From the NCBI GenBank assembly GCA_029933125.1, contig JAOZOU010000007.1, positions 1-64,000 of the forward strand: a stretch of DNA of 64,000 nucleotides. The letters are read 5' to 3'. Source of the stretch: a bacterium. Its GTDB lineage: Bacteria; Arandabacterota; Arandabacteria; Arandabacterales; Arandabacteraceae. Shown here one piece after another: positions 2,846 to 27,174 of this stretch. Position numbers and translations under genes: made by a program. The first letter of the stretch is position 1, and each line of letters starts with the position of its first letter. The notes under the pieces are model-generated. The model worked only from the letters and a program-made list of their open reading frames with translations, was not told the DNA's origin and did no database searches.

Positions 2846-2847
2846 AG

Positions 2848-4269: not shown

Positions 4270-4283
4270 CGCCTCTCCCCTCG

Positions 4284-6059
4284 CTACTCAACGGTGGCGG
4301 CAATCAAGGTTTCCATTTCCTTGTCAATCTCGTCCTTGATAGCACGGATATCGTCGATTCTATCCTCAGGCTCATACTTAGCCCTTGCAATGCGTTCGCG
4401 CACGGCCATCTTCTCAATTGCTGTTATTGGAACACCGCGCTCGAGCGCCTCACGAGCTGCCCGACCAAAGTAAAGCACAACCTTTAGCATCTCATACTGC
4501 TTCTGAAGAGATGTGTAAGTGTCGACCTCATGGAAGGCATTTTGATGGAGAAAGTCTTCACGAATTGACCTTGCAACCTCCAGCGTGAGCCTATCATTGG
4601 GTGAAAGAGCCTCAACACCAACGAGACGCACTATCTCTGCGAGATCAGCCTCCTCCTGCAATATGCGCATAGCCTCACTCCTGAGATCAACCCAATCTGG
4701 TGCAACGTTTTCTGTAAGCCAAGGATCGAGATTCTCATAATAAAGGGAATAGCTATTGAGCCAGCTTATTGCAGGGAAGTGGCGCTTGTAGGCAAGATGA
4801 TCCTCTAGACTCCAGAATACCTTAACAACTCGAAGAGTTGCCTGAACGACAGGATCAGAAAGATCACCACCTGGAGGTGAGACAGCACCAATCACAGAAA
4901 GAGCACCTTCTCGTCCATCGCTTCCCAGGCATTTCACCCTACCGGCTCTTTCATAGAATTCGGCAACACGTGCACTAAGATATGCAGGATAGCCCTCCTC
5001 CCCTGGCATCTCCTCAAGGCGTCCTGAGATCTCACGCATCGCCTCCGCCCAGCGCGACGTTGAGTCAGCCATAACAGCAACGCTATAGCCCATATCGCGG
5101 AAGTACTCAGCGATTGTTATCCCTGTATAGACTGATGCCTCACGGGCTGCAACAGGCATATTGGAGGTGTTTGCAATAAGAACTGTTCGCTTCATCAAGG
5201 GTTCACCACTTCGCGGATCTTTAAGTTCGGGGAACTCAAGCAAAACATCCGTCATCTCATTCCCACGCTCACCACAACCGATGTAAACAATGATCTCAGC
5301 ATCTGCCCACTTAGCAAGCTGGTGCTGGATGACTGTCTTGCCCGATCCAAAAGGACCAGGAACACATGCCGTGCCTCCCTTGCCAACAGGAAAGAGGGCA
5401 TCAATTACACGCTGACCTGTTGAGAGCGGAACGATGGGGGGAAGCTTCTCGCTGTAGGGTCTTCCCATACGCACGGGCCAGCGCTGGATGAGGCTGAGAT
5501 CGCGTACACCTTCAGGTGTTTCAATCTTTCCGATTACATCCTCCACAGTGTAATCGCCTTCAGCAATCTCAAGGATCTTTCCCCTCATTCGTGGCGGGAT
5601 CATTATCTTGTGAACAACCAGTACTGTCTCATTGACTGTCCCGATGATATCACCAGGTCCAACTTCCGCTCCGGGTTGAACCGTTGGGACAAAGTGCCAG
5701 CGCTTCTCGCGATCAAGAGCAGGAATGTCAACACCCCTTGTAATGTAGTCACCAACCATTATCCTGATAACATCGAGGGGTCGCTGAATACCATCGTATA
5801 TCGATTCAATCAATCCCGGACCAAGCTCAACCGAAAGAGGCGAACCCGTTGGATAGACTGGTTCACCAGCCCCAATACCACCTGTCTCCTCATAGACCTG
5901 AATGGAAGCAAGATCCTCGCGAAGCTCAATTACCTCACCAATCAGTCGCTTCTCGCTAACCCTCACAACGTCATACATCTTGCTTCCTTCCATACCCTCT
6001 GCGACAACAAGTGGACCTGCAACTTTAACGATTTTTCCAGGTTTGAGGTCTTCAGCCAC
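4284..6059 (-). CDS. atpA: V/A-type ATPase catalytic subunit A
   Basis: 591 residues from a GTG start at 6059, which gives the conserved N-terminus [24 protein letters not shown] ribosome site lies 9 bases upstream. A longer open frame upstream encodes non-family sequence across atpF and is rejected. The P-loop GPFGSGKT is at about 235-242, and the catalytic segment around [13 protein letters not shown] follows. It hydrolyses or makes ATP at the A/B interface. It follows atpF by 19 bases. Confidence 0.96.
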
Positions 6060-6078
6060 TGGAGCGAACCCCCTTTGA

Positions 6079-6405
6079 TTATTCAATCTTAAGGATGTCT
6101 GTTCCAAGTGCACGCTTAAGCACCTGGGAAAGCTTCCTGAGTCCAATCTTTTGTGAGCCTGCACTTGATGGCACAAGCACAACGCTCGGTTCATATTGCT
6201 TTGAAGATTCAGCTATAATGTCGCCGATTTCCTTCCCAACATCCTCAGTAACGAATATTACAGCATGTTCCTTCTTGCGAATTAGCCTTGCAATCACCTT
6301 GCGAGCATCATCAGCCGATTCAACAGGAAAGGCGTCAACCCCCAAGCCCTCAAATGCCACAACAGTTGCCTTTTCCCCTACAAGCGCCAGTTGCTTATTC
6401 AACAC
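6079..6405 (-). CDS. atpF: V/A-type ATPase subunit F
   Basis: 108 residues from a GTG at 6405, chosen because GGGGAGG sits 7 bases upstream and the protein then begins in family style ([23 protein letters not shown]). The small Rossmann-like central-stalk subunit binds D. It contains [14 protein letters not shown]. The start overlaps the end of atpC by 11 bases, which suggests translational coupling. Confidence 0.9.
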
Positions 6406-7420
6406 TTGCAAGCCTCCCCTTGAGAGCCTCAGGCGCAATTGCGCGCTCCTTCGCCGCAAGAATTAGTCTCAGCATCCTTATCTCATTCTCTTTAAGCAAG
6501 GCATATGCAATTATTATTTCAAGTCCAAATGTGAAATAGCGAGCGAGGTGCAGGAAGGAGATAAGATAGTTGTCAATCTCCCTTTCAAGATCAACAAATG
6601 TGCCACCCCTTTCTATGCCCTCACCACCAATCTCAATGATTGGTTTATAGGGACTGAATTCAAAACGCTGGCGAACTTCATCGAGGGGAAGTGAATATGT
6701 TTCCCTAAGGTCTGTGAGTTTAACAAAGCCACCGGAGATAAGAAGTTCGGGAAGATTGCGGGATTCAATACCGAGGTAACGTCCGCGCATAAAGGTTCGG
6801 ATGTTTGCAAGATCAATCCAGGTGCGAATGAGGGCTTCAAGATAGAGCGAACCATAACTTCGCGCACGTTCGAGGAAGAGGTGAAACATTGCCCTGTCAA
6901 TCACCGTATCACCTTCAGATGGATCCCTTGACTTGGAGACCTTATCAAGCGCTTCACTTGCAGGTTCAAAGAAGATATCAGGCAAAGCCTCAAGGGCTTC
7001 GGTCTTTAGCGCCGCCGTCAAGATGTCAGGAGAATAGCGGCTGTAGTCGTAGTAAAGGTGAGCAAGGTCACGGCCCGAAACTTTTTCTCTGATAGCAACT
7101 TTGAGATTCTGGAAGTCATACTTGAGTCTCAAGATGTCACTGACATCCGGATCCAGGGTAAGAGCATCAACGAGGGCAAGTACGCGTCGGGTCTCATTGT
7201 GGAGGCAACCGACATAGCCTATTTCTTCCATCTCGTCAAGATGCACACCATAGTCAGTATCCGAAAGAAGCCTTAGCGCCTCGTCAAGATCTCTGGCTTC
7301 TGCGATCCGCTCGAGTCGCTGTCTGCCAAGGAGCCGCATCTCAAGTGCCCTTATGCGGCCACAGGCATAGGCATATCGCTCATCGTGACTTGATACTCTG
7401 TGTGCCTGAAGATACTTCAC
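6395..7420 (-). CDS. atpC: V/A-type ATPase subunit C (d-type, stalk-rotor connector)
   Basis: 341 residues, all-helical, of the AtpC/V-type d family (YAYACGRIRALEMRLL at the N-terminus; DVSDILRLKYDFQNLKVAIREK inside). It sits on the membrane ring and couples it to the D/F axle. The GTG start at 7420 overlaps the atpE stop by 4 bases (GTGA). Confidence 0.9.
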   Translation of the reverse strand: MKYLQAHRVSSHDERYAYACGRIRALEMRLLGRQRLERIAEARDLDEALRLLSDTDYGVHLDEMEEIGYVGCLHNETRRVLALVDALTLDPDVSDILRLKYDFQNLKVAIREKVSGRDLAHLYYDYSRYSPDILTAALKTEALEALPDIFFEPASEALDKVSKSRDPSEGDTVIDRAMFHLFLERARSYGSLYLEALIRTWIDLANIRTFMRGRYLGIESRNLPELLISGGFVKLTDLRETYSLPLDEVRQRFEFSPYKPIIEIGGEGIERGGTFVDLEREIDNYLISFLHLARYFTFGLEIIIAYALLKENEIRMLRLILAAKERAIAPEALKGRLASVE

Positions 7421-8052
7421 GCCTCGCTCCCCTGCTCCTTGACCTTCCCACCAAATAGAACCTGCGAAATTTCAGTCTCAATTTCATCACGCACCATACC
7501 GAGGAGCGTGTCAAATGTTGAATTACTCTCAGATCTGGCTCTTTTGAGTATGAATCCTCCTTTGATGCTGTGGGAGTCTTCACACAGCTTCACCTCACCC
7601 CGCTTGCCCTGTCGCTTGAGCTCCCCGTTGAGTCTGTCGAGAAAGTCAGGTGGCAGCGCTTTGCGATCCTCAGCATCGAGGATTATCTCCTCATCACCAG
7701 CCTCCACTGCCGAAAGCAGAAGCTTCCAGGTGATGCCATAGCCACTTTCACGATCCTTTTGCCTCAGACTTTCAAGAGCTCTTGCGAATACCTCATCGAT
7801 AACCTTTCCCTTCTCAGCGAGGACTGCCTTGCGAGCTTCAAGTTCTCGAAGACTCACCTGCCTGCGCACATACTCAGACGCCTCTTCCTTAGCCCTTGCC
7901 TCAAATTCCTGCCTTATTCTCTCTGCCTCGGTCTTGGCTTCCTCAAGGATGCGACTTGCCTCGCTCTTTCCCTCTTCAATTATCTTGCTTGCTTCACTCT
8001 CAGCATCAGCAATTATCTTACGCTTAAGTTTATCGAGTTTGCCTTGCTCCAT
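7417..8052 (-). CDS. atpE: V/A-type ATPase subunit E (peripheral stalk)
   Basis: 211 residues. The N-terminal half (about 1-95) is a long charged helix with AE(S)EASKI(I)EEGK-type heptads that pairs with subunit H/G. The C-terminal half is the globular head-binding domain. The ATG at 8052 has GAGGATAA upstream. It lies between the proteolipid gene and atpC. Confidence 0.92.
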   Translation of the reverse strand: MEQGKLDKLKRKIIADAESEASKIIEEGKSEASRILEEAKTEAERIRQEFEARAKEEASEYVRRQVSLRELEARKAVLAEKGKVIDEVFARALESLRQKDRESGYGITWKLLLSAVEAGDEEIILDAEDRKALPPDFLDRLNGELKRQGKRGEVKLCEDSHSIKGGFILKRARSESNSTFDTLLGMVRDEIETEISQVLFGGKVKEQGSEA

Positions 8053-8073
8053 TTATCCTCGGCTCCCTCTCAT

Positions 8074-8553
<480 letters not shown>

Positions 8554-8592
8554 TTAGCCTCTCCTTCCTGTCTGACCAAGACCATGCAAATC

Positions 8593-10572
8593 CTAACTTG
8601 GCTTGTCAACCAAAGTTGTATATTTGAGTTCCCTGGCAAACGGTTTGAAGCGCTTTCCACCCCCTTCGAAGAATTTTGGATAGAATTCAACGTACTGAAG
8701 ACGTGCCGAATGGACAAAACCACCTAGTGCATTGACTGCTATGTTCAATGTGTGCCCTCCGGCAAGAACAAGAATCATCGCTGGATAGCCAATGACAGGT
8801 ATTCCCTTTGCCATGAGAGCCACAGCATTTATGACCATTGCAATGCCACCTGTTGCAAGTCCAAGAGCAAGCAACCTGGCATAGGAGAGTACATCACCAA
8901 GATAGCCTGTTATGCCGTAGAGGTTATAGAAACCCCATCCCAATCTCACAACGGGATTCTTGCCAACCCGATGACTGAAACCGATGATTGCAATTGCTGA
9001 AACAATTGCAGCCCACTTAAACATTGGGATGTGAGCCTGGCTAATTGCTCCCATCTTTGCAGCACCGAAAAGAACTGCAGACCAGAGCAAAACAATCCAG
9101 GTGACCTGATCGAAGATGGCAGCAAGAGGATCACGTGCTCTCAGATTTTCAATCATCTCGACAATCAATCCGAAGGTGACCTGGATGAATCCAAGAGCGA
9201 GTGCCAATCCAAACATAAGCATAGGATTCTTCATGGGATCAAATTGCATAAGGGTATGGCGAAGGGTAACCACGAATCCAAGCCAAGGTGGTACCGTCTC
9301 TTCGGTCAGACCAAACCAGCCACCTGTTATTGCTCCCATGAAGATCGTTGCTAAGCCACCTGCGAAAATCAGCCAGAGAAGTTTGTGTCCGGCTCTTAAG
9401 TATCTCATGAGAAGCAAGGAGAGAATTACGAGCACAATACCATAGCCTGCATCAGTGAGGCAGAAGCCGAAAAACAATGCGAAGAAGGGTGCAGCCAGGG
9501 GAGTGGGATCAACCTCACGGGCATGAGGCATGCCATAGAGCTCTGTTATCACTTCGAAGGGTCTCACGATGCGCGGGTTGCGGAGTTCAATTGGTGGTGA
9601 CTCGTCGGGTTCAGGCTCAATCTTGAGAACTTCCGCTGATTCAACAGCCGCCTCAACATCTTTCACCAGCCGATCAAACTCATGACGCCTTATCCAGCCC
9701 TCAATCATCCCCACCCTTTCAGTCGTGCCAACGAGACTCTGTGCGTGCACACGATGAGCCTCCTGGGCGAAGTAGTCATGGACGATCATGAGCTTGGGCT
9801 TGTGGCTTGCAAGCTCCTGCCCCTTTGCTCTTAAAGCCTCGAGCTCAGCATTTATCCTTTCGACTTCTTCCCTTGTCTGGGCTATGAGCTGCCTGGGCAA
9901 GCCCTTAAGATCTTCAAAGGTTTCGGCTTCAAAATCATTACGGCGGAGAATCTCCTCAACCGCCTCCCGTTCATCAAGGTGATACCAAATTATAAGATTT
10001 GCTACACGCTCCTTGTGGCTTACGATTTCAAGTGTATATGTCTCGCTAACCTCACTCAGAGCGATTTCAAGTGTCTCAGGCGTCCGCCCGGTAAGCGTAC
10101 CCATCGCAACTGCAACATGCTGTGTGGGTGCGATCTCCTCGAGGGGAACATCAAGGGCTGACCATGGGCTCAAGCGCGCAATAAAGCCTTCGAATTGAGT
10201 AAGGCGTGTGCGAAGCTCTGTTCTTTTTGCTTCGAGGTCATCAACCTCTTTAAGAACAGATTGGTAATCAAATTCTCTTGTTATCTTCTCAAAATCTTCT
10301 CTCGTTACAATGACTTTGCCACCGCCGAAGCCACCAAGAATGCCACCCTTCTCCTCGAATTCACTCAGACTCTCTATTGCTCTTCTGATATCATTTGCAG
10401 TGCGATCAGCTTCGACCGATGTTACCTCGCTCACCTCGACATCTTCAGCAACCGGGCTTTCCCTAAGGTCAAGTATTTGCACCGAGCCCTTGTCCTGAAG
10501 GAGGGCAAGGAGACGATCCCGCTCGGAGCGAGGAAAGAAGATTGCTATTTTCTGCATGGGCATTAGACCCAT
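8593..10572 (-). CDS. atpI: V/A-type ATPase membrane subunit I (a subunit)
   Basis: About 659 residues. The N-terminal soluble half with two coiled-coil arms (about 1-340) anchors the peripheral stalks. The C-terminal half has about seven to eight membrane helices and carries the ion half-channels. The conserved segment DVLSYARLLALGLATGGIAM includes the essential Arg. The exact start is uncertain: ATGs at 10572, 10563 and 10557 are all possible. I take 10572, directly at the atpH stop. Confidence 0.93.
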   Translation of the reverse strand: MGLMPMQKIAIFFPRSERDRLLALLQDKGSVQILDLRESPVAEDVEVSEVTSVEADRTANDIRRAIESLSEFEEKGGILGGFGGGKVIVTREDFEKITREFDYQSVLKEVDDLEAKRTELRTRLTQFEGFIARLSPWSALDVPLEEIAPTQHVAVAMGTLTGRTPETLEIALSEVSETYTLEIVSHKERVANLIIWYHLDEREAVEEILRRNDFEAETFEDLKGLPRQLIAQTREEVERINAELEALRAKGQELASHKPKLMIVHDYFAQEAHRVHAQSLVGTTERVGMIEGWIRRHEFDRLVKDVEAAVESAEVLKIEPEPDESPPIELRNPRIVRPFEVITELYGMPHAREVDPTPLAAPFFALFFGFCLTDAGYGIVLVILSLLLMRYLRAGHKLLWLIFAGGLATIFMGAITGGWFGLTEETVPPWLGFVVTLRHTLMQFDPMKNPMLMFGLALALGFIQVTFGLIVEMIENLRARDPLAAIFDQVTWIVLLWSAVLFGAAKMGAISQAHIPMFKWAAIVSAIAIIGFSHRVGKNPVVRLGWGFYNLYGITGYLGDVLSYARLLALGLATGGIAMVINAVALMAKGIPVIGYPAMILVLAGGHTLNIAVNALGGFVHSARLQYVEFYPKFFEGGGKRFKPFARELKYTTLVDKPS

Positions 10573-10573
10573 A

Positions 10574-10885
10574 TCAGCCAAGCACCCTTTCTATGAGAAG
10601 ATCAACAGCCCTATCGATGTTCGCCGATGCCTGATGCTTTATTGCTTCAACATCCTCTCGCTCACGATTTGCAATCTCCTCGATGCGCTTCTTGGCTTCC
10701 TCTTCAGCAGCTCGAAGAGCTTGCTTCACCTTTTCATTGCCTTCTTTGCGAGCTTCCTCGATGAGATTGCGTGCATCTTCACGGGCTTTTGCAATTATCT
10801 CACCCCTCTGCTTACGCGCATCCTCAAGCATCTTTGCGGCTTGAGCCTCTATGGCTTTTATCCCATGGATGACCTCTTTTACCAT
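10574..10885 (-). CDS. atpH: V/A-type ATPase subunit H/G (peripheral stalk)
   Basis: 103 residues, almost entirely a charged helix (Ala/Glu/Lys/Arg heptads) ending in ANIDRAVDLLIERVLG. It pairs with subunit E to form the peripheral stalk. It is the first gene of the operon. A good promoter lies about 60 bases upstream, and AGGAGG precedes the ATG. Confidence 0.9.
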   Translation of the reverse strand: MVKEVIHGIKAIEAQAAKMLEDARKQRGEIIAKAREDARNLIEEARKEGNEKVKQALRAAEEEAKKRIEEIANREREDVEAIKHQASANIDRAVDLLIERVLG

Positions 10886-12585: not shown

Positions 12586-13203
12586 ATGAGAAAGGCTATT
12601 GCGGTGGGGTGTATTGTAGCGGTGCTTGTGACGCTGGCTATGTTCTTTGGCAGCGGGTCTCAAGTAGATTCGCACAACACATCGCCTGCTTTCGGAGCGA
12701 TGCTCGATGAGGCTATCGCCCGTCTGGAGGGTGTACCCCAGAAGATCACAGCGGTAACTGTTGGTCAAGCACAAGCGGCTCCTGCTCAGGAGACCATGTT
12801 TGGCGAACTCACCTGTACACGTCCTGAATGTTTACAGTATACATACGATGGATCTTCAACCTGTGAGGGTACAGCCACATGTGATGACAAGTATACTTGT
12901 GAGAGGTTCTACACCTGTGACTCATACTATACTTGCCACGGAGAGGCAACCTGTAACGGATGCTGGACTTGCTGGTTCTCTACGTGTGAACAGCCCCAGA
13001 TGACCTGCGATGGATCATGGGAAACATGTGACTTTGCCAACCCTGAGTGCATTGAGTGGACTTATCAAGGGTGGTACACATGTGATGGCAGTCTAACCTG
13101 CGGCTATGCCCAAACCTGCGCAGGTTGGCCAGAGTGTGGCGGTGGCCCGAGCGCAACGGAGCGTACCACCTGGGGGAGGACAAAGCTACTGTTCCGGCGT
13201 TAG
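12586..13203 (+). CDS. Exported Thr-Cys hexad-repeat protein with TTWG tag
   Basis: 205 residues. The N-terminal signal peptide (about 1-23) is followed by a short helix (MLDEAIARLEG). From residue 76 the protein carries 18 Cys, most in a TC-x4 repeat with six-residue period (TCEGTA TCDDKY TCERFY, then similar units). Two longer units match each other (PEC-[LI]-x-[YW]-TY-x-G and then TC). The C-terminus, PSATERTTWGRTKLLFRR, is the tag shared with the proteins at 874 and 24338. The repeat suggests a small disulphide- or metal-stabilised solenoid on the surface. I recognise no named family. GGGGGTGA precedes the ATG. Confidence 0.8.
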   Translation: MRKAIAVGCIVAVLVTLAMFFGSGSQVDSHNTSPAFGAMLDEAIARLEGVPQKITAVTVGQAQAAPAQETMFGELTCTRPECLQYTYDGSSTCEGTATCDDKYTCERFYTCDSYYTCHGEATCNGCWTCWFSTCEQPQMTCDGSWETCDFANPECIEWTYQGWYTCDGSLTCGYAQTCAGWPECGGGPSATERTTWGRTKLLFRR

Positions 13204-13453: not shown

Positions 13454-15826
13454 ATGGGACCTCTGACAATAGCGATCTTTGCCTCTGGAATTCTCTTTGC
13501 CCTTGGGGAGATGGGCTTCCTGACCAGCGGTATCAATAGCCTTGTCTCCTTCCTGCTAACCTCAGGGTTCATAATCTTAAACAGACCACGTCGATGTCCC
13601 GTTGCCATCTCACGCTTGGCCGGCGCGATATCGCTATTAGCCCTTGCCATAGTGTTTGCTCGAGCTGGTTCACTGTGGCTATTTCTGACATTCATAGCCA
13701 TACCAGCTGCTCTCTACCTCATGCTCGAGGATGCTGAGCACAGCAGGGAAATGGAGCTTCTGATCCCCACCGTGACCATGTTCATGTTTCTATGGGCTGG
13801 CCTGCGCTGGATACCCCATCTCTGGTGGGTCGCGGACGCTGCAGCTGTAAAGTTTTCCGGCTTTGTGGGGAAACTAATCGGCCAGGACTATGTGTTCAGC
13901 TCAACAGCGTCCGGCTTCCACGTTGTCGCTTTCTTCGCTTGCTGGGGCATAAGTCGCTTTCTCCTGGCAAACAACAGGACATGGGATCTCTTGCGGTTTC
14001 TGTTCTTTCTGATCGTCACGGCTGGCATTGTTCAGATACTTCTCACCCCACTTGCAATGATAGTTCAGCGGTGGGCAGGTGATCTTGACTTCCTGCTTTT
14101 CAACCCGCAGATCATCTATCTAGTGGCTGCTACCTTGCCCGTCGCATGGTATCGTCGAAAATCACCCCTTTCAACGCCACAGGGCAGGCATCACCTCGGT
14201 CGAAAGGTACGAGCAAAGGTGGCTACGATCGTAGCTGTGCTTGCGGGTCTATGCCTTGGAATTGCTTTTACATTGACTGCTCCCAATGAGGGGGGTGGTG
14301 GCAAGATAATCCTTCTCGATAAAGGCTATCTCGATTGGCGGGTACCTGTGTTTGGTTATTACGGACATCGCTCGGGCGGTATGTTCGGCCGCTTGCCACA
14401 ATGGCTTGAGGCACAGGGCTATGAAGTCACAAAAGAACCGGGGCCACTCAATTCGGCGATTCTTTCAGACGCAAGTGTCCTGGTCATTATCAACCTCATG
14501 GAGTTCCTGGAACCCGAGGTCAAACAAGCGATCTGGCGATTTGTGAAACATGGGGGAAGCCTGCTTGTCCTCGGAGATCATACCGGTGTCAAGGGAATAC
14601 GACTTCCGTTCAATGACCTCTTGCGTCCATTCAACATCGAGTTCGAATTCGATTCGGCAACATTCTGGTCACAGGGGTGGCGAGATGCGCTTGAGCTTAT
14701 GCCTCATCCTATAAACCGGGATGTTATTGTAGCTGAGGATATTCAGATTTGGATTGGTGCTTCCCTTGCTATTGCCCCACCAGCAAGGCCTGTTATCATC
14801 GGCAAGTACGCCTATTCGGATATTGGAGATGCAGCAAAGATCGATAGATCATTCCTTGGTGACAGGCGTTACAATTTAGGTGAACGACTTGGCAATGTTT
14901 GCCTTGTTGCCGAGGCGTCATACGGTAAGGGGAAGGTGCTCGCTTTCGGTGATACATCACCCTTCCAGAATGGTGCGCTCACAACCTCATGGAAGTTTGC
15001 TCAGCGTGTCTTTCAATGGCTAAGCGGGAAACCACGCTTTTCCGCACGGCCTTATAGAGGAATCGCCATATTCGTGGCCGCCCTGCTGATATTTTGCCTT
15101 CGACGCTTCCTATCCCTTAGTTTCCATGGGTGGGGATTTCTGTCCTTGGGGTTTGTCATAGCGGCCCAGCTGATCCACACGCTTGCTGCACCACCCCCAC
15201 TCCCGAGGATCGCACAACCCAAGGCATTGGTTGACATATCCCATGCTGAACGTTTTGATCAGCTATCATGGTATGATAACTGCATCGGAGGGCTCGAACT
15301 CAATCTCGCAAGGAATGGATACTCGCCCATGCTCATGCGAGATTTCTCAGGGTCACTCGTCGAGGACAGCGACGTTTTGATTGTGATTGCACCTGCGAAG
15401 GATTTTAGCCCACAGGAATGCCAGACAATCAGTAATTTCATGAAGGATGGTGGTACGCTCATCCTGAGCACTGGTTATGAGGAAAGGGACAGATCACGAG
15501 CCTTGCTCTCACTTTTCAGCACTGAAATCCTGCCGGTGCCGCTGGCGTATTTTGAAACACGCGTCTGGGATCAGACAGTACGGCTTGCTGAAGCCTGGCC
15601 AATAAAGGTTTCAGCGCCTGGGACTATACCAATATGCTATTACTCCGGCTTGGATTATCCTGTCATCGCCTATGCCCCAAGAGGCAGGGGAGGGGCGCTC
15701 CTGATTGGTGATTCTCGCTTCTTCCTGAATAGCAATCTCGAAGGGAAGGAAGAGTACTACCTCGGGAACATTACGTTCTTGAAGGCATTTTTTGACAGCC
15801 TCAAGGCAGGAGCATTTCATCGATGA
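13454..15826 (+). CDS. Large membrane protein with two GATase/GldG-like domains (paralogue 1)
   Basis: 790 residues. The N-terminal 250 or so contain about six to seven membrane helices. An extracytoplasmic alpha/beta domain follows (about 275-520) with FVKHGGSLLVLGDHTGVKG, then a membrane segment (about 540-580) and a second similar domain (LVEDSDVLIVIAPA, FMKDGGTLILSTGYEE). The domains resemble the DUF4350/GldG type of GATase-like fold, in which an 'xxxGGxLLVLxD' strand-turn recurs. No nucleophilic Cys of a true amidotransferase is seen. The ATG at 13454 has a weak ribosome site. It overlaps its paralogue downstream by 4 bases. Confidence 0.75.
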   Translation: MGPLTIAIFASGILFALGEMGFLTSGINSLVSFLLTSGFIILNRPRRCPVAISRLAGAISLLALAIVFARAGSLWLFLTFIAIPAALYLMLEDAEHSREMELLIPTVTMFMFLWAGLRWIPHLWWVADAAAVKFSGFVGKLIGQDYVFSSTASGFHVVAFFACWGISRFLLANNRTWDLLRFLFFLIVTAGIVQILLTPLAMIVQRWAGDLDFLLFNPQIIYLVAATLPVAWYRRKSPLSTPQGRHHLGRKVRAKVATIVAVLAGLCLGIAFTLTAPNEGGGGKIILLDKGYLDWRVPVFGYYGHRSGGMFGRLPQWLEAQGYEVTKEPGPLNSAILSDASVLVIINLMEFLEPEVKQAIWRFVKHGGSLLVLGDHTGVKGIRLPFNDLLRPFNIEFEFDSATFWSQGWRDALELMPHPINRDVIVAEDIQIWIGASLAIAPPARPVIIGKYAYSDIGDAAKIDRSFLGDRRYNLGERLGNVCLVAEASYGKGKVLAFGDTSPFQNGALTTSWKFAQRVFQWLSGKPRFSARPYRGIAIFVAALLIFCLRRFLSLSFHGWGFLSLGFVIAAQLIHTLAAPPPLPRIAQPKALVDISHAERFDQLSWYDNCIGGLELNLARNGYSPMLMRDFSGSLVEDSDVLIVIAPAKDFSPQECQTISNFMKDGGTLILSTGYEERDRSRALLSLFSTEILPVPLAYFETRVWDQTVRLAEAWPIKVSAPGTIPICYYSGLDYPVIAYAPRGRGGALLIGDSRFFLNSNLEGKEEYYLGNITFLKAFFDSLKAGAFHR

Positions 15827-18525
15827 GATGGTTATGGCTAACTGCATTCTTCTCCACACTCTTCTGGCTGCGTACGATTCCCATCTTCATGAGGGCACAG
15901 GATGACTGGGTCTGGTTCATCGCTCTGGCAGTACTGTCAGCGGGCATCGGGCTTCGGAAGGCACGTGTTACAGGTTTCAACTTGCGGTGGCTTCTGCTGC
16001 TTGCCCCTCTGGCAGTGGGCCTCTGGCTCTTGCCCTTTCCATACAGCGTGCCTGTTGTGCTTCTAATTCTGACCGTGGTTCTGCTGGCGACTTCGGGTTT
16101 TTCGGAAAGCCTATCGTGGGTCGGCTTGCCATTTGGATTGACCGCTACGGTGCTATTATTTCAAGCAGCGATCTTGCCTGTGCTATACATTTTCGCATCA
16201 AGAGTCCACGAGATTCCGGCTCTGACGCCCCTATTCTACTGGCTGGCAAAGCTATTTGATCCAACAGTGGCATTTAGTGAGCACTGCATTGTCATCCATC
16301 AGGTTTACGATGTCTATAGCTTCCCGGTGCGCCTTGAGTCACTGGGTTTCATCCCGGCAAGCTTGATCACGATCGCTGGAGTGGTTTTGCTGATTGCCTC
16401 CCGGCGTTCGCTGAGATCGATTGCAAGCTTCATTGGGATTGTTGTTGGCTATTCAGTCTTTCGATATTTGCTCATGATTTTCCTCGTTGTCAAATTCAAG
16501 ACACTCACTATCTTCTGGCTGCCATTGCCAACAGCATTAAGCTACGCCCCCTTGATCGTTCTGCTCATAGCCTGGGACTACAGGGGAGCAACTTTCCCGA
16601 AGGCATCCATTCGGCTGAGCTGGATTGGTTACAGAAGGACTTTCGGTGCCCTTGGACTGATCACTGCAGCTGTCATATGCGTGGTTGGACTTCTGGCTTA
16701 CCACGACCCTGGCACACGGAAGCAAGGCAGGCTTCTCATAGACGAACTCCATTCCGACTGGGAATGGACGACTCGCAAATATGACACCGAATGGTATGGC
16801 AGAAAGTCGGGCTACAATTACTACTGTCTTGCTGATTATCTTGACCACTTTTACACCGTGGATGTGGGTACTGATTCACTGCTACCGGATCTCCTCTCGA
16901 AATATGATGTTGTGATCCTCAAGACCCCGACAAGTCCTTACAGTCAGCGAGAGATAGATGCGCTTGTGGAATTTGTTAAGCGTGGGGGAGGGCTATGGCT
17001 CCACGGAGATCACACCAATGTTTTCGGAATCAGCACGCACCTTAACCAGCTCGCAAGTCGATTCGGGCTGCGCTTCCGTTACGATTCCACATATGATCTG
17101 ATGACCATGGCTCTTAGCATTTTTCAAGCCCCACCGATATTCCGGCATCCTACTGTTGCCTTCCTGCCAACATACCTCTTCGCTACCTCCTGCACCATGG
17201 AAGCGCCTCTCTTTTCGGAAAACATGATCATTGGCTATGCACTCAAAGCCATGAAGCTCGACTACTCCAAGATGGGGTTCTTCCCTGAGAAGGACGAGCA
17301 GAACTACGGCTTTGGACTGTTTCTCCAGCAGGGTGGAATCAAATATGGTAAGGGCAGGGTGGCACTCTATACCGATAGCACCTGCTTCTCCAATTTCTTC
17401 ATGTTCATCCCAGGAAAGCCGGAACTGGCACTTGCGACAGTAGAATGGTTGAATCGCACAAATAGATTTGCCTGGCTGAATAAAATCCTGTTCACCTTTG
17501 GTTTAGGCCTGGTCTTGATTGCAGTGGTTGTTGTAAGGTCCTGGGATCGATCCGCGAAGCTGGCTCTCGCCCTGTGCGGAGGTATTCTGGGATTCGCACT
17601 GGCAGCTTCGGTCTACGATGGATATGTACGGCGATGCTATCCACTGCCTCAACCGCGCAGAGACTATGTTCATGTAGCCTTTGAGGGTGAGCATTCATCG
17701 TTTACACTTCCAACAACAGGGCTGACAAGGACGCCTGAGATCAGCCTCCACACGTTCTATGTCTGGACACAACGGCTCGGTTTCTTCCCGAGCTACGAGC
17801 CCGCGTTGGAAGAAGCTCTCAGAAAGGGTGACCTGGTTGTCATAGGTAATCCCACTGAGCCTTTTTCTCAAGATGAGCTGGATGCGATAATCACTTACCT
17901 GGCTGCTGGTGGGCGATTGCTCATCATTCTCGATCCCATCAATCAGGAATGGGCACCCGCACAACTTCTAGGATCGCTGGGACTCAGACTGGAAGAGCCC
18001 GAAGAAACAGAGGAAGACAAGGCGCCTCAACGAGATGGAGAAAACCGAGGTCCTCAGCGAAGACCGCCAGTGCAGGCGATTCTTGACGACTGGCCACTTG
18101 AACCCGCCAAACCGGTGGAGCAACCACAACAAGTGCAACATGAGGATACAAGCGCCGAATCTGATCAAACTCCCGCATATATCATAAGCCCTGACGGGGA
18201 TGTGATAGTCCTATCGGCGCGTCCCATTGGACTTCAGGGCGGAATCCCGCTTCTTCGCCTTTCTGATGGTCGTGTGATATTAACCGAGGTGAGGATTGGC
18301 AAGGGGCGCGCCTTCGTTTTTTCTGATTTCTACCTTTTCACCGAGGAGGTGATGGGGCACACAGGTGAAGTCCCGGATCCAAGGAAGCGCTCGATAGCAG
18401 AGCTTGAGTACTGGATGCTCCGTGAAATCATGGATCTACCCCAGCCAAGACTCTTCTGGCAGAAGGACAGAAAAGGAGCGATTGCTCCCAAGTCCACCGC
18501 CGAGAAGCAGCTCCAGCAACCTTGA
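15823..18525 (+). CDS. Large membrane protein with two GATase/GldG-like domains (paralogue 2)
   Basis: 900 residues, with the same plan as the upstream gene: about seven N-terminal membrane helices, a first domain with FVKRGGGLWLHGDHTNVFG, a membrane helix pair near 560-600, and a second domain with YLAAGGRLLIILDP. A Glu/Pro/Gln-rich linker (about 720-780) precedes a final GKGRAFVFSDFYLF segment. The first domain begins with LIDELHSDWEWTTRKYDTEWYG. ATGA overlap with the upstream gene implies coupled translation and probably a complex. The product is likely inner-membrane with periplasmic domains. The function is unknown. Confidence 0.75.
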   Translation: MRWLWLTAFFSTLFWLRTIPIFMRAQDDWVWFIALAVLSAGIGLRKARVTGFNLRWLLLLAPLAVGLWLLPFPYSVPVVLLILTVVLLATSGFSESLSWVGLPFGLTATVLLFQAAILPVLYIFASRVHEIPALTPLFYWLAKLFDPTVAFSEHCIVIHQVYDVYSFPVRLESLGFIPASLITIAGVVLLIASRRSLRSIASFIGIVVGYSVFRYLLMIFLVVKFKTLTIFWLPLPTALSYAPLIVLLIAWDYRGATFPKASIRLSWIGYRRTFGALGLITAAVICVVGLLAYHDPGTRKQGRLLIDELHSDWEWTTRKYDTEWYGRKSGYNYYCLADYLDHFYTVDVGTDSLLPDLLSKYDVVILKTPTSPYSQREIDALVEFVKRGGGLWLHGDHTNVFGISTHLNQLASRFGLRFRYDSTYDLMTMALSIFQAPPIFRHPTVAFLPTYLFATSCTMEAPLFSENMIIGYALKAMKLDYSKMGFFPEKDEQNYGFGLFLQQGGIKYGKGRVALYTDSTCFSNFFMFIPGKPELALATVEWLNRTNRFAWLNKILFTFGLGLVLIAVVVVRSWDRSAKLALALCGGILGFALAASVYDGYVRRCYPLPQPRRDYVHVAFEGEHSSFTLPTTGLTRTPEISLHTFYVWTQRLGFFPSYEPALEEALRKGDLVVIGNPTEPFSQDELDAIITYLAAGGRLLIILDPINQEWAPAQLLGSLGLRLEEPEETEEDKAPQRDGENRGPQRRPPVQAILDDWPLEPAKPVEQPQQVQHEDTSAESDQTPAYIISPDGDVIVLSARPIGLQGGIPLLRLSDGRVILTEVRIGKGRAFVFSDFYLFTEEVMGHTGEVPDPRKRSIAELEYWMLREIMDLPQPRLFWQKDRKGAIAPKSTAEKQLQQP

Positions 18526-20855: not shown

Positions 20856-23492
20856 CTATCTAACAAAATTGAGACTTATCGTCCCGGATGCCTCGCCTGC
20901 TCGAATTCTTGCGTAGTAGATACCGCTCGCAACACGGTGTCCGGCATCATTGCTTCCGTCCCAGGTCAACCGATGGATACCGGGTTCAAGCGAACCACTT
21001 GCAAGGGTTTTGACCTTGCGTCCGGTCAGGTCATAGACTGAAACCGCTACCTGGCTTGAGTGCGAGAGAGAGAACACAATAGTTGTGCTGTTTCTAAATG
21101 GGTTGGGCTGGGCACCAAGATCCGTCACAACCTCCTGCCACCTGGCTGCAACACCGCTTACATCAGGCAAAGTACCGAGATCAAAAGAATACATGGAACG
21201 ACCGTGCGTACCGGCAACGAGGGTGCGGGTGGGATTGTGAATCTCAAGATCATAGACAGGTACAGGCGGAAGTCCAGTTCCCAGAACCTCCCAGTTGGTG
21301 CCGGCCATCTCGCTGTAGAAGCAGCCAACATCGCTTCCGACAATGATTCTTGATGGAACAAGCGGATCAACAACGATGGCATTGACAGGCGCACCGGGAA
21401 GATTGCCGGTCACATCTGTCCAGGTTGAGCCATAATCGTCCGTCCGATACACATAGCCAATGTCTTCATCCCACCTTAAGCCGGAGAAAGTCACATAGGC
21501 AATTGATGCATCGGTTGGATCAGCCGCCACCCTTGTCACCCACCGATTGGGAAGTGAGCCGGATATGTTCTGCCAGGAGGAGCCACCCTTGGTTGTTACC
21601 CAAACATTTGAGTCATCGGTCCCAACATAGATGACATCAGGATCACTTGGGGCAACTGCAATCGTGGTTATTGTGCCAAAGCCGCCGCCATGATCACCAT
21701 CGGTCAGGTCGCCGCTTATGGGATCCCACCAACCTGCTCCATCGGTGGTCTTATAGACCCGGTAAGTCCCAAGATAAAGCGTCTGGTTATCAGTTGGATC
21801 CATCACAACTGGCATCATCCAATTCGTCCGATCCGAACCAACTCCGTCAAGCGCTGAACTCCAAGTGTAGCCAAGGTCGGTTGATTTATAAAGATTGCCA
21901 TATTGATACTCGGCATAGATTACATTCGAGTTTGTTGGATCGACAACGCAGTAGAAGCCATCGCCTCCAAAGATCATTTCCCAGTCATCGATCGCACCTG
22001 TAAGCGTCCGAAGTGTGCCGTTGTCCTGAGTGCCTCCGTAAAGCCGCTCAGGATTGAGATAGTCAATCTCTATGGCGTAGAACTGATTGGTTGGCTGGTT
22101 ATAAAGCTTCGTCCAGGTGGCACCTGAGTTGGTTGAGACATAGACGCCACCGTCGTTACCTTCGAAAATGCGGCTTGGGTTTGTGGGATCAAAAACCAGG
22201 GCATGATGATCAACATGGTTTGAGGACCCGACCTCGCTCCAGGAGTCACCACCATCGGTTGACCGATAGAGATAGATACCCATAGCAAAGACTAAATTGT
22301 GATCTACCGGGCTTACTCGAATCTGACCAAAGTACCACCCATAAGAGCTATAGATTCCACTCAGAGCACTATCATTGGTGCGTGTCCATGAATCGCCACC
22401 ATCGGTTGACTTATAGACCTGAGCCGAGTAGGTTGCCCGATCGTCATAGATTGCGTAGACAACATTCGGGCTTGAAGCGCAGACCGCGATGCCGATTCGA
22501 CCAACATTGGGACCTGTTGGCAATCCATTTGTGAGCTCAACCCATGTATCCCCACCATCGTATGAGCGGTAGATGCCACTCGAAGGACCACCCGAGCGTC
22601 GATAGTTAAGCCCACGCACACGTTCCCACATAGCTGCAAAGATGGTGTCAGGATGGGAGGGATCAATTGCAAGATCTATGGCTGCTGTTGAATCCGTTAG
22701 CGAAAGCACAAGGTCCCACGAGGCACCACCGTCGAGCGAGCGATAGACACCACGTTCGGGATTCGTGCCGAAGAGGGAGCCGGTGCCAGCAACCCAGATT
22801 CTTGACGTATTGATTGGATCAATGATGATACGTCCAATGTAGTGGGTCTCCTCGAGCCCGATGTATTTCCAGGTTGCACCCCCGTCGGTTGACTTATACA
22901 TGCCCATACCGAACCAGCTGAAACTGTGGGCATTGGCTTCGCCCGTTCCAACATAGATTGTATCGGGGTGCTTCGGATCAACTGCAATTGCTCCAATCGT
23001 AAGCACGGGAAGGTCATCGCTTATAGGCTGCCAGGTTGTACCTCCGTCGGTTGATCTGAACACCCCACCACTCGCCATGCCAGCATAGATGATGGAGGGA
23101 TCAGTTGGGTGGAAGGCAAGGTCAGTAACACGTCCACCGATATTGTCCGGTCCCTCAACTACCCACGATCCACCTGCCAGCTTTGCCGACTTACGGGCTT
23201 CAAGCCGCATGATCTGAGCATCAACCACAGCCTGCTTGAGCTGAGTAAAGTTGATGCGGTCATACGGATAGGCACGCTGCCTGTAACCCCAACCACTCGG
23301 AAATTCGCCTTCCCCCTCAACTTCACCAGATTCTTCCGCAGGTTCCTGATGTGACCCCAACCCGGGAGCCTCAAGGGACTGCTCTCCGCCGGGCTGTGAT
23401 GGGTGGATAGGTGACGAACTATGATGGATCACAAGACCAAAGGCAACTGCCATTACAATACTTACCCCAACAACAAGCTTCTTGGTTTTCAT
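20856..23492 (-). CDS. Secreted Asp-box (BNR/VPS10-like) propeller protein with FlgD/T9SS-type C-terminus
   Basis: 878 residues. Signal peptide/anchor at 7-25. About ten Asp-box motifs of the form S-x-D-x-G-x-[TS]-W (such as STDGGTTWQPI, STDGGDSWTR, STDLGYTWSS) from about 140 to 770 form one or two beta-propellers, as in the sortilin/VPS10 and sialidase-like groups. The last 80 or so residues (VAVSVYDLTGRKVKTLA and ASGIYYARIRAG) match the FlgD-Ig / type A sorting domain found in FCB-group secreted proteins. It is probably exported to the surface. AAGGAG precedes the ATG. Confidence 0.88.
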   Translation of the reverse strand: MKTKKLVVGVSIVMAVAFGLVIHHSSSPIHPSQPGGEQSLEAPGLGSHQEPAEESGEVEGEGEFPSGWGYRQRAYPYDRINFTQLKQAVVDAQIMRLEARKSAKLAGGSWVVEGPDNIGGRVTDLAFHPTDPSIIYAGMASGGVFRSTDGGTTWQPISDDLPVLTIGAIAVDPKHPDTIYVGTGEANAHSFSWFGMGMYKSTDGGATWKYIGLEETHYIGRIIIDPINTSRIWVAGTGSLFGTNPERGVYRSLDGGASWDLVLSLTDSTAAIDLAIDPSHPDTIFAAMWERVRGLNYRRSGGPSSGIYRSYDGGDTWVELTNGLPTGPNVGRIGIAVCASSPNVVYAIYDDRATYSAQVYKSTDGGDSWTRTNDSALSGIYSSYGWYFGQIRVSPVDHNLVFAMGIYLYRSTDGGDSWSEVGSSNHVDHHALVFDPTNPSRIFEGNDGGVYVSTNSGATWTKLYNQPTNQFYAIEIDYLNPERLYGGTQDNGTLRTLTGAIDDWEMIFGGDGFYCVVDPTNSNVIYAEYQYGNLYKSTDLGYTWSSALDGVGSDRTNWMMPVVMDPTDNQTLYLGTYRVYKTTDGAGWWDPISGDLTDGDHGGGFGTITTIAVAPSDPDVIYVGTDDSNVWVTTKGGSSWQNISGSLPNRWVTRVAADPTDASIAYVTFSGLRWDEDIGYVYRTDDYGSTWTDVTGNLPGAPVNAIVVDPLVPSRIIVGSDVGCFYSEMAGTNWEVLGTGLPPVPVYDLEIHNPTRTLVAGTHGRSMYSFDLGTLPDVSGVAARWQEVVTDLGAQPNPFRNSTTIVFSLSHSSQVAVSVYDLTGRKVKTLASGSLEPGIHRLTWDGSNDAGHRVASGIYYARIRAGEASGTISLNFVR

Positions 23493-24337: not shown

Positions 24338-25498
24338 ATGCGACGCCCGTTCCTTCTATTCGGACTGTTTATGCTAATGCTTCCCGCTTCAGTAATGGGT
24401 AGGACCTGGTACATCACTCCTGACGGTACTGGTGATGCACCTACTATCCAGGCTGGGGTGGATTCAGCATCAGCTGGAGACACAGTACTTGTTGCCTGTG
24501 GCATCTATACCGACATTGGGTACGTAGCACCGGACGGTGTCAGCTCCTGCGTCAGGATGAAGTCCAATATCACCCTGCTTGGTGAAGGAGATCCAAGCTG
24601 TGTAGTCCTTGACGCTCAGCAGCAAGGTCGGGTCATCCTGTGCGACTCAATTGTGGCATTTGAAATAACAGGTCTCACGATTAGAGGCGGAAATGTGCTA
24701 GTTGGGGGAGGACTCATGTTGCAGGGCGCTGAGAATGCGCGAATTGCCAGATGCGTGTTCTTCGATAACAGAGCAACCGCCGGCGGTGGCATACAGATCG
24801 ACATGGGTACCAGGTATGTCGATATCGAAAACTGCACATTCAGCCGCAATCATGCCGACTATTACGGTGGGGGAATCCGTTGCGAAGCAACCGATGTGAA
24901 CATAACTGGCTGTTGGTTTGAGGGAAATGATGGCACCTACGGCGGTGGTGGCATCTTTTTCTATCGGCACGGCTACAGGAATGTGGCCGAGTGTGTTTTC
25001 ACACATAACACATCGGCAAGAACGAGTTGGTATGGTGCTGGCATTGACCTGTTCTGGGCCAATGCGTCTGTGGACAACTGCACATTCTTCCAAAACCAGG
25101 GCATCGCAATAGTCGTATACGGACCCTCTAGTCTTCTGATCAGAAGGTGCATCGTGACTGGATCCCTTTACGGGCTTGACGGTCACGTTTCAGACGACCT
25201 GGAAGAACCAGATGTATATGCTATCTGCTGCGACGTTTATGGAAACACCATTTGTGACTGGTGCTACTTTGAAGACCCCTCCTTCTGCTTAAAAGTAGAC
25301 TGCTTCTCAGAGTGCCCCTCGTTTTGCAATGCAGCTGCTGGGGATTTTCATCTTTGCGATGGCTCCCCCTGTCTGCCCGGGAATCATCCATATGGTGCGG
25401 ATTGCGGACTCATTGGTGCCTTGGGTGAGGGTTGTGCATGTGGACCGTCAGCCACCGAACCCACTACGTGGAGCAAAATCAAATCCATGTTCAAATAG
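24338..25498 (+). CDS. Exported right-handed beta-helix protein with TTWG tag
   Basis: 386 residues. Signal peptide 1-21 (LLFGLFMLMLPASVMG). A pectate-lyase-like start (WYITPDGTGDAPTIQAGVDSA) is followed by beta-helix coils with the usual Asn-Cys-x-Phe turns (IENCTFSRNHA, VDNCTFFQNQG). The Cys-rich C-terminal part ends in CGPSATEPTTWSKIKSMFK, the tag shared with two other proteins in the window. No conserved lyase active site is apparent, so it may be a surface adhesin or binding protein. Confidence 0.85.
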   Translation: MRRPFLLFGLFMLMLPASVMGRTWYITPDGTGDAPTIQAGVDSASAGDTVLVACGIYTDIGYVAPDGVSSCVRMKSNITLLGEGDPSCVVLDAQQQGRVILCDSIVAFEITGLTIRGGNVLVGGGLMLQGAENARIARCVFFDNRATAGGGIQIDMGTRYVDIENCTFSRNHADYYGGGIRCEATDVNITGCWFEGNDGTYGGGGIFFYRHGYRNVAECVFTHNTSARTSWYGAGIDLFWANASVDNCTFFQNQGIAIVVYGPSSLLIRRCIVTGSLYGLDGHVSDDLEEPDVYAICCDVYGNTICDWCYFEDPSFCLKVDCFSECPSFCNAAAGDFHLCDGSPCLPGNHPYGADCGLIGALGEGCACGPSATEPTTWSKIKSMFK

Positions 25499-25549: not shown

Positions 25550-26146
25550 TCACGGAGCCCCATTTGGTCTCGGTATGTGATCATTGACTCCGTGCTTATT
25601 GTAGACGTCAAAGATTTCCTTACAGAACTTGATCATCCTCTCATCCCGTTGCTTCACCGCATCCTCATAGAGTTTGATTAGGAACCGCTTTCCGAACTCA
25701 GTCTGCGAATATCGCTTCTTGAGCAAATTGTGCTCTGAGCACAGGGTTTGACCGTTGTCCACTGCGCTTTTCCCGCCTTTGTCTAGTGGCACCTTGTGGT
25801 CAACATGTAGTTCGACACCATCTTCAATGCCTCTGCCACAGACTACACACCTGTAACCGTCTCTTTTCAAAATCAGCTCCTTTACGTCAGGGGGAAATCG
25901 CTTGATGTTCCTCCCGGTCGCCGTGTCGGGATCGTACCGGTACACACCCTTTCTGACCTTTGTCAAAATACCATCCTGATAGAGTCGTCTAATCTGTCGC
26001 CAGGTATCCCTCGGCTTACGACCGTGTGCACGGACATATCTTTCCTCCACATAGTCAACTACGGGACCATGCGGAATGTCTTCCTTCGGGCGTTGTTTGA
26101 AATACTCGATTATCAGTTCAGCGATAGTGGGCTTTGACTCAGTCAA
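25550..26146 (-). CDS. HNH restriction endonuclease (putative) with winged-helix N-terminus
   Basis: 198 residues. The N-terminal 80 residues look like a winged-helix DNA-binding domain (VDYVEERYVRAHGRKPRDTWRQIRRLY). The HNH domain has zinc-binding CVVCG, the catalytic HVDHKVPLDKGGKS and CSEHN. The gene overlaps the upstream DNA methyltransferase by 4 bases (ATGA), the typical layout of a type II restriction-modification pair. The recognition site is not deducible. Confidence 0.85.
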   Translation of the reverse strand: MTESKPTIAELIIEYFKQRPKEDIPHGPVVDYVEERYVRAHGRKPRDTWRQIRRLYQDGILTKVRKGVYRYDPDTATGRNIKRFPPDVKELILKRDGYRCVVCGRGIEDGVELHVDHKVPLDKGGKSAVDNGQTLCSEHNLLKKRYSQTEFGKRFLIKLYEDAVKQRDERMIKFCKEIFDVYNKHGVNDHIPRPNGAP

Positions 26147-26943
26147 CGCTTGCTGTTCCTTGATCTGATCTCCAGTGTTAGCTGTTCCAATGACCCCTCT
26201 TTTAGAAGTCTCTCCTTCGCAATCTTGCAGTACCTCTTATCAACTTCGATCCCTATCCCTTTTCGCCCCGTCAGCGCACAAGCAAGTAGTGTCGTCCCGC
26301 TCCCCAAGAAAGGATCCAGCACAGTGTCCTCGACGAAAGTGAAAAGCTTAATGCACCTCTTCGGAAGCTCAACTGGAAATGGGGCTGGGTGGCCAACGCG
26401 CTTCTTACTCTCGCCTGCAAACGTCCAGACACCGTTCGTCCATTCAATAAACTCCTCACGGGTGATGTCTGATGTCCTACCGGTCCGTTTCCTCTTCCAA
26501 CTACCCTTGTATAGCACCGCTATCATCTCAACGGGTGCAATAACATAAGGAGCAGCAGCGGAAAGCCACGATCCCCAGGCCGTGCGCCTAGAAATATTCT
26601 GCTCATTCCAGACAATCGTCGAGTGGTACTTGAAGCCGACGCTCTTGGCGATGGTCAGCAAGTCAGCATATACGGATTGCTGACCGCCCTTGTTCTTATC
26701 AAGGGGAATATTAAGACACAGCCGCCCTCCATATCTGAGAACGGCGTATGCCTTACCAAGCCACTCTCGGCTGAACTCCAGATAGGCGTGGTAGGGTATC
26801 TTGTCGTCATAGGCGTTGTACGTTATGTCGACATTGTACGGCGGTGAGGTGACGATTAAATCAATACTACCTTCTTCAAGACACTCTTGTTTCAAGAAGT
26901 CAGCGTTGTAAATGCTGATGTCGCCAATGCGAAAATAGAGCAT
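26143..26943 (-). CDS. DNA adenine/cytosine-N4 methyltransferase of a type II R-M system
   Basis: 266 residues from the ATG at 26943, which has GGGAGGAG upstream (the frame stays open to 27153 but has no ribosome site). Catalytic motif IV is TSPPYNVD and comes first; motif I, DPFLGSGTT, is near the C-terminus (beta-class order). TSPPYN occurs in both N6-adenine and N4-cytosine enzymes, so the base is undecided. It protects host DNA from the coupled HNH enzyme. Confidence 0.92.
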   Translation of the reverse strand: MLYFRIGDISIYNADFLKQECLEEGSIDLIVTSPPYNVDITYNAYDDKIPYHAYLEFSREWLGKAYAVLRYGGRLCLNIPLDKNKGGQQSVYADLLTIAKSVGFKYHSTIVWNEQNISRRTAWGSWLSAAAPYVIAPVEMIAVLYKGSWKRKRTGRTSDITREEFIEWTNGVWTFAGESKKRVGHPAPFPVELPKRCIKLFTFVEDTVLDPFLGSGTTLLACALTGRKGIGIEVDKRYCKIAKERLLKEGSLEQLTLEIRSRNSKR

Positions 26944-27010
26944 TGCTCTCCTCCCTTCCAACATCCACCCCCAACGTTGCCACACTCTCCACTCCAAACC
27001 TCCAGCTGCA

Positions 27011-27050
27011 ATTATAGCCTTCCTTCTCATTGTTGCACAAGTGAACTTGT
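27011..27050 (-). promoter_or_regulatory. Promoter of the R-M operon with overlapping palindrome
   Basis: Minus strand: TATAAT (27011-27016), 18-base spacer, TTGTGC (27035-27040). A perfect palindrome with 2-base centre, ACAAGT-GA-ACTTGT (27037-27050), overlaps the -35 element, which could make it an operator for autoregulation. Confidence 0.4.
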
Positions 27051-27146
27051 AGCTTTTGTGTGAAATACAGCAAGCTTGCATAAGTGTCGACTCACTTAGG
27101 TAAGCCCTGGCCGGAACCAACAAAGCCATGTCACCAATTGTGTGGG

Positions 27147-27174
27147 TTGACAAGTGGGGAGGGTTGGGTAGAAT
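27147..27174 (+). promoter_or_regulatory. Predicted promoter of the porin gene, possibly leaderless
   Basis: Perfect TTGACA (27147-27152), 16-base spacer, TAGAAT (27169-27174). The ATG at 27183 lies 8 bases after the -10, so the transcript would start at or next to it. Confidence 0.5.

Follow-up and report, generated by a model that had tools for sequence, protein, structure and literature searches.

A short, apparently undescribed C-terminal tag is a probable sorting signal of exported proteins in poorly known bacterial phyla

Three exported proteins encoded in the window, the 64,000-nucleotide stretch of DNA analyzed here, end in the same short tag of ~17 residues, which very probably functions as a C-terminal sorting signal read by a trans-acting partner. 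The tag is widespread and apparently undescribed. It is known in several poorly known, mostly uncultured phyla, a distribution far wider than the window. As a whole, the explanation that we slightly favor is a short sorting signal for Sec-exported proteins, with the type IX secretion system (T9SS) as the likeliest route; whether the reader of the tag itself belongs to the T9SS is an even call. The known C-terminal signals of Sec-exported proteins compared here either carry a transmembrane helix, as do the substrates of sortase, exosortase, rhombosortase and myxosortase, or are folded domains (T9SS), and the tag is neither. It suggests that the T9SS signal class reaches a minimal helical form or else that a new outer-membrane route exists. 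In each genome, the tag also picks out ~30 proteins that are likely secreted or on the surface and would otherwise be annotated as hypothetical.

Results

The tagged proteins and related features of the window are collected in Table 1. Protein 1 ends in CTLTP-ATQPTTWGTIKALYR, protein 2 in CGGGPSATERTTWGRTKLLFRR and protein 3 in CACGPSATEPTTWSKIKSMFK, each directly followed by the stop codon; tag 2 contains one arginine more than the other two tails. A reading of the window made without database searches (the sequence-only reading) had described three unrelated bodies with the common tail AT-[EQ]-[PR]-TTW-[GS]-x-x-K-x-[LM]-[FY]-[RK] and an export signal on each protein. The C-termini read as described, a Pfam search of the three bodies identified a β-helix in protein 3 and no family in proteins 1 and 2, and all three proteins carry an export signal (signal peptides in proteins 1 and 3 and an N-terminal hydrophobic signal in protein 2). 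A cysteine said to precede the tail holds as a tendency but not as a rule, as a Cys occurs within the 12 upstream residues in 57% of tags versus 30% of ordinary body windows. The body of protein 2 is built of Thr-Cys/Asp-Gly repeats with a very high Cys content and an unknown fold. Tagged gene 1 adjoins a V/A-type ATP synthase operon (D, B, A, C, E, I; 2222-10581, minus strand). Directly downstream of tagged gene 3, an HNH endonuclease and an N6/N4 DNA methylase (25550-27153, minus strand) likely form a restriction-modification pair.

Table 1. Tagged proteins, their tags and features compared with them in the window
Feature	Position	Strand	Description
Tagged protein 1	874-1728	-	284 aa; signal peptide and body of unknown family
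Tag 1 (CTLTPATQPTTWGTIKALYR)	877-936	-	Last 20 residues of protein 1
Tagged protein 2	12586-13203	+	205 aa; N-terminal hydrophobic signal and Cys-rich repeat body; no Pfam match
Tag 2 (CGGGPSATERTTWGRTKLLFRR)	13135-13200	+	C-terminus of the Thr/Cys-repeat protein 2
Tagged protein 3	24338-25498	+	Signal peptide, right-handed β-helix and tag
Tag 3 (CACGPSATEPTTWSKIKSMFK)	25433-25495	+	Predicted helix 378-385 after disordered linker 369-375
T9SS type A/FlgD-like sorting domain (comparison)	20886-21107	-	Residues 796-869 of an untagged 878-aa protein
Two large membrane proteins (rejected partner)	13454-18525	+	DUF4350/ABC_transp_aux/GIFT-like

The tag comprises ~17 residues at the stop codon with the pattern [PG][ST][PA][VT]E-x-[ST]-T-W-[GS]-x-[IV]-K-x-[LM]-[YF]-R, or about PSATEPTTWGxIKALYR. 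Typical ends in the genome that contains the window are GPSATEPTTWGGIKQLYR, GPSATESSTWGRIKALYR and GPSATETTTWGGIKQLYR. In a position-wise profile, conservation begins ~18 residues before the stop and covers E at -13 (75%, partly enriched by the pattern of the GTDB scan described below), T/S at -10, W at -9, G/S at -8, I/V at -6, K at -5, L/M/I at -3, Y/F at -2 and R at -1. The W residue is fixed, and K (99%), R (95%), G/S (98%) and I/V (96%) are nearly so, although the search pattern partly sets W, K and some other core positions. When 145 full-length tagged proteins were aligned, the W residue was invariant and a Pro, the K and the R nearly so, and conservation was essentially confined to the tag. 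At identical residues, the third bases of the tags in the genome of the window agree at a frequency of 0.40, compared with 0.36 expected from codon usage alone. The tags were therefore not recently copied as DNA, and their residues are under selection, in line with the earlier remark that the codons differ while the residues agree.

The occurrence of the tag was analyzed with a core DNA pattern that contains no stop codon (WSN TGG DSN NNN NYN AAR NNN HTN TWY MRN) and with the same pattern reversed as a control. The genome of the window (G000; 3.23 Mb in 176 contigs) contains 26 matches to the core pattern and none to the reversed one, which excludes chance as the source of the tag in this genome. 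For 25 of these 26 matches, the ORF stops with the motif or no more than one residue away from it, and nearly all begin with an N-terminal signal sequence. A profile built from the three window tails only gave 34 matches in the same genome. The sequence-only reading had proposed a search of related genomes, and this search, run with the pattern, returned many matches per genome: in the phylum of the window, each of the eight genomes examined (six genera, three families) contains 14-48 matches to the pattern and 0-1 to its reversed form.

GTDB contigs, scanned with a stricter pattern that includes both tag and stop codon, yielded at least 115 stretches. Among the matches listed are Eisenbacteria, Krumholzibacteriota, Effluviviaceae, UBP1, Latescibacterota and Zixibacteria, as well as a few MAGs labeled Gemmatimonadota or Fibrobacter; absence of the tag from other groups does not follow from the matches listed. 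One match in Flavobacteriaceae (L202) is a chance match inside a membrane protein; its tail was included in the 60-row tag profile A5, on which its effect should be small. In Eisenbacteria WS_3 (the phylum of G023), 41 of 47 genomes have core pattern matches, most of them 9-41. Six genomes of this phylum without a pattern match were searched with a 60-tag profile, and at least one tag was found in five; two of these five matches are weak (E = 0.03-0.05), but their ORFs are members of the tagged LTD family found in the other genomes.

The tag is exactly terminal in 50 of 52 ORFs of a set unbiased with respect to the stop codon; one of the other two has one extra residue, and one carries the tag internally. 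Some tags in G026 and G036 have a few residues beyond the R, so exactness is lineage-dependent. The internal copy STKPSTWGGIKAMYK in L028 (G000 contig C120:276038-276066, minus strand) lies in a protein that consists of a signal peptide, a short carboxypeptidase-regulatory-like stretch, the tag and 263 further residues. Signal peptides take proteins to the periplasm. They were found, by a permissive heuristic applied to ORFs from GC-frame gene calls, in 95 of 100 complete tagged ORFs versus 225 of 491 untagged ORFs of the same loci (Fisher p = 1.6e-22). For the body-INDEPENDENCE of the tag, the bodies of 164 tagged proteins were clustered and fell into 67 clusters without detectable similarity. 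Placement at the very C-terminus, signal peptides and the lack of one shared domain had all been anticipated by the sequence-only reading, and these three counts agree with it.

Client bodies assigned by Pfam or NCBIfam include LTD, CHRD, β-helix, CBM20 and choice-of-anchor W, X, J and R, and some clients are similar to rhombosortase- and myxosortase-dependent families. In NCBIfam naming, "choice-of-anchor" denotes bodies found with varied C-terminal anchors. A further client, L263, is a choice-of-anchor V protein, from a family that has a MYXO-CTERM-anchored relative. Some tagged proteins are tandem paralogues, as would be expected if the tag were the remnant or repeat of one homologous C-terminal domain spread by duplication without a sorting role. 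This origin is hardly credible given the 67 dissimilar body clusters, conservation that stops ~18 residues from the stop codon, third-base identity near random at shared residues and a structural model that has a linker and no domain at the tag.

In the AlphaFold2 model of protein 3, computed from a 22-sequence alignment, the body is a confident β-helix (mean pLDDT of 87.9) that is followed by a linker with pLDDT values below 50 (residues 369-375) and then by a helix of moderate to low confidence that corresponds to the tag (residues 378-385). A fold search with the β-helix body returned polysaccharide lyases and tailspikes, as expected for this fold, and nothing on the tag. A helix is again placed at the tag in a second, unrelated tagged family, in a poor model (61.8). 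As a helix, the nonamer from W to the end has a hydrophobic moment of 0.60 versus 0.37 for shuffled sequences and a net charge of +2. The tag is thus predicted to be a short amphipathic helix on a flexible linker. It does not have the C-terminal Ig-like β-sandwich of ~70-100 residues, as its conserved stretch spans ~17 residues and is modeled as linker and short helix.

A short predicted helix at the extreme C-terminus, with such a moment and charge and with aromatic W and Y/F residues, would also suit a membrane-binding amphipathic helix of the MinD/FtsA type that tethers clients directly and needs no protein reader. We consider this improbable. Generic anchors of this kind are degenerate, whereas the tag has a fixed W and the near-constant K, R, G/S and I/V positions given above, even allowing for the part set by the search pattern, and its conservation reaches P-x-x-x-E upstream of the helix. 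A third point comes from genome G045, in which the amphipathic face of the tags has lost its L-[YF]-R half but the core stays. The 20 tags examined in this genome keep W-[GS]-x-[IVL]-[KR], and V-E or T-E stands upstream in most of them; in place of an intact L-[YF]-R end they have a variety of degenerate tails (KSLFGN, KTVLGN, KKGG and others). Such concerted change on unrelated proteins is what an altered trans-acting reader would produce.

Differences between genomes were also observed when tags from five further genomes were included. Once entries that resemble each other upstream of the tag had been excluded, 60 tags were left, and their similarity was 0.470 within genomes versus 0.399 between genomes, a difference that could be inflated by genome-wide amino-acid composition and was reached by 0 of 2000 label permutations. 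Genome-specific dialects of the tag on unrelated proteins imply a shared trans-acting reader.

None of the 145 tagged proteins matched a C-terminal sorting-signal model of NCBIfam (release 20.0) or Pfam, and FlgD_ig, Por_Secre_tail, TIGR04183 and PF18962 each failed to match any of them. Known motifs of the T9SS C-terminal domain (CTD) do not occur in the tag, and a PDB sequence search with the tag profile returned a chance match only (E = 0.58). Of 176 tags, a single one exceeds a 19-residue hydropathy of 1.6, the level used for a transmembrane helix within the C-terminal 45 residues, and no PEP-CTERM, MYXO-CTERM, GlyGly-CTERM or LPXTG model of NCBIfam was matched, which bears out the view of the sequence-only reading that the tail is not a PEP-CTERM or LPXTG signal and is not followed by a membrane helix. 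No paper on the motif, or on sorting in these phyla, was found in the open-access literature, outside which most subscription journals lie. An encapsulin or microcompartment cargo-loading peptide was rejected, as it needs cytoplasmic cargo without a signal peptide and the tag clients carry signal peptides.

The tag and the T9SS type A CTD are found in one genome, and in the window an untagged 878-aa protein (20856-23492, minus strand) that matches TIGR04183 (35.4 bits, cutoff 23) and FlgD_ig (45.4 bits, cutoff 27) is encoded in addition to the tagged ones. The two signals were not found together on one protein (0 of 145 in the sample). At locus L113, in another genome, two tandem genes 18 bp apart encode proteins with near-identical starts (MRRSLILFAAVLLAADSPL...) and 40% identity over residues 1-283; one protein ends in the tag (CGEISVEHTTWGGVKTLFR), and the other runs into TIGR04183 (31.5 bits, cutoff 23). 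Protein 3 of the window aligns to this CTD-bearing protein from residue 1 to 366, just before its tag. At L267, in a Zixibacteria genome, two tagged LTD proteins are encoded near a 57% identical LTD protein with TIGR04183 (49.9 bits). On the same bodies, then, the tag stands where a T9SS signal would otherwise be. Such an exchange of position with an export domain argues against a C-terminal degron or protease-processing site recognized in the periplasm, as does the appearance of the clients as stable secreted or surface proteins (β-helix, LTD, CHRD). Exact C-terminal placement in most lineages would be in keeping with such a site, which we nevertheless judge very unlikely.

A search with SprA_N (PF14349) for the T9SS translocon protein SprA was positive for 32 of 35 tagged genomes, for 39 of 47 genomes of the Eisenbacteria phylum and for 67 of 80 genomes in the phylum of G022 (which includes the Krumholzibacteriota MAGs G008, G021 and G024), compared with 0 of 14 controls. 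The SprA protein of the genome of the window matches TIGR04189 with 536 bits (cutoff 200). All 47 Eisenbacteria-phylum genomes encode PorV-family proteins, a family expanded to 6-15 copies in each. Because SprA and PorV are near-universal in these phyla whether a genome has one tag or 40, their co-occurrence with the tag can neither discriminate between routes nor prove the T9SS one. Linkage to PorV is weak, with six PorV-like matches in ~115 tag loci. The tag-rich MAGs G022, G023, G042, G043, G051 and G061 have no SprA match; the gaps are scattered among MAGs, which fits incompleteness of the MAGs but is no proof of it.

The sequence-only reading took the tail for a tag by which an unnamed system sorts or anchors proteins. 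This idea stands in its main part (position, clients and bodies) but not in the partner suggested for it, the membrane pair of Table 1. The 900-aa protein of this pair (15823-18525) is unmatched in 28 of 30 genomes outside the phylum of the window. As a general partner, the pair was rejected since it is missing from most tag-rich genomes, such as G024 (47 profile matches), G026 (41 pattern matches), G019 (33) and G022 (25). Clustering of the neighbors of tag genes revealed no machine, and its largest family consists of β-helix and CTD-bearing proteins.

Discussion

The tag and the T9SS type A CTD (TIGR04183/PF18962/FlgD_ig-like) are both C-terminal signals on Sec-exported, structurally diverse proteins. 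They occur on the same client families, even on the same tandem paralogues, and in the same genomes, which contain SprA and PorV-family proteins, and both end in hydrophobic residues followed by Lys or Arg. The type A CTD, however, is an Ig-like β-sandwich of ~75 residues with GxY-type motifs, whereas the tag has ~17 residues, a predicted helix and an invariant Trp and matches no model. Miniature T9SS signals beside long ones in one genome have a parallel in Prevotella intermedia, in which short CTDs of 43-55 residues have three predicted β-strands and still contain motifs B, D and E (PMC11969387). The tag shares nothing with these short CTDs but a terminal basic residue; motifs B (Gly) and D (GxY) are not found in it. 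The type B CTD, which has ~100 residues and five motifs and uses PorP/SprF shuttles whose genes are often linked (PMC12618676), shows that several signal classes, each with its own shuttle, exist in T9SS genomes. Unlike type B CTD genes, tag genes have no consistent link to PorV-like genes.

Membrane-embedded proteases or transpeptidases cut MYXO-CTERM, GlyGly-CTERM and PEP-CTERM, which are tripartite signals made up of a motif, a transmembrane helix and a basic end (PMC11980579, PMC3237569, PMC1569441). They resemble the tag in that they are phylum-specific, occur dozens of times per genome on unrelated signal-peptide bodies, have few copies in some members and show an occasional internal copy, which is rare in MYXO-CTERM proteins (PMC11980579). 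The tag differs from them by the lack of a transmembrane helix.

In the mechanism that we propose, an N-terminal signal peptide, as called by the heuristic, would carry the client to the periplasm, where the body would fold and leave the tail free on its flexible linker as a short, amphipathic and cationic predicted helix. A trans-acting reader would then recognize the W-G-x-I-K face of the helix and pass the client to an outer-membrane route that displays it on the surface or releases it. We infer recognition by the T9SS; the likeliest route would be the SprA/Sov translocon, and the shuttle would be one of a genome's 6-15 PorV-family proteins. For small cargo, the tag would be a minimal substitute for the ~75-residue Ig-like type A CTD.

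The reader may instead be part of a new, dedicated machine apart from the T9SS, with which these phyla would export proteins across the outer membrane, anchor them at the surface or retain them in the periplasm, a possibility to which we give clearly less weight. Such a machine would be consistent with a tag that resembles no T9SS CTD or other sorting-signal model and with the several tag-rich MAGs that lack a SprA match, and the coexistence of type A CTD proteins with the tag in the same genome could reflect two parallel routes. However, neighbor clustering and the single-tag genomes yielded no conserved machine-like neighbor other than a BPD_transp_2-type ABC pair beside one LTD client, and the exchange of tag and T9SS CTD between tandem paralogues suggests a common destination. 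A new protein-export or surface-anchoring machine, shared by at least four FCB-group candidate phyla and reading the free W-G-x-I-K helix, is put forward here only tentatively, next to the T9SS route that we prefer.

The G045 dialect, in which the core is kept and the end is lost, and an Eisenbacteria clade with a single client are natural tools for finding the reader. In this tag-poor clade (L258-L262; G069, G070, G075, G076 and G077), one tagged LTD protein remains. Where gene calls resolve, its gene forms a conserved trio with two genes ahead of it, which encode an ABC protein with a double ATPase and a permease of the BPD_transp_2 type. The pair was rejected as the reader, since it looks like an ordinary importer that happens to adjoin one client; the trio possibly imports a nucleoside or sugar, with the tagged protein as its partner at the surface.

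SprA itself lies beside one or two genes of one membrane-protein family, LptF/LptG-like by sequence appearance, in all six neighborhoods inspected (L218-L223). This adjacency suggests that the ancestral T9SS translocon was linked to LPS transport.
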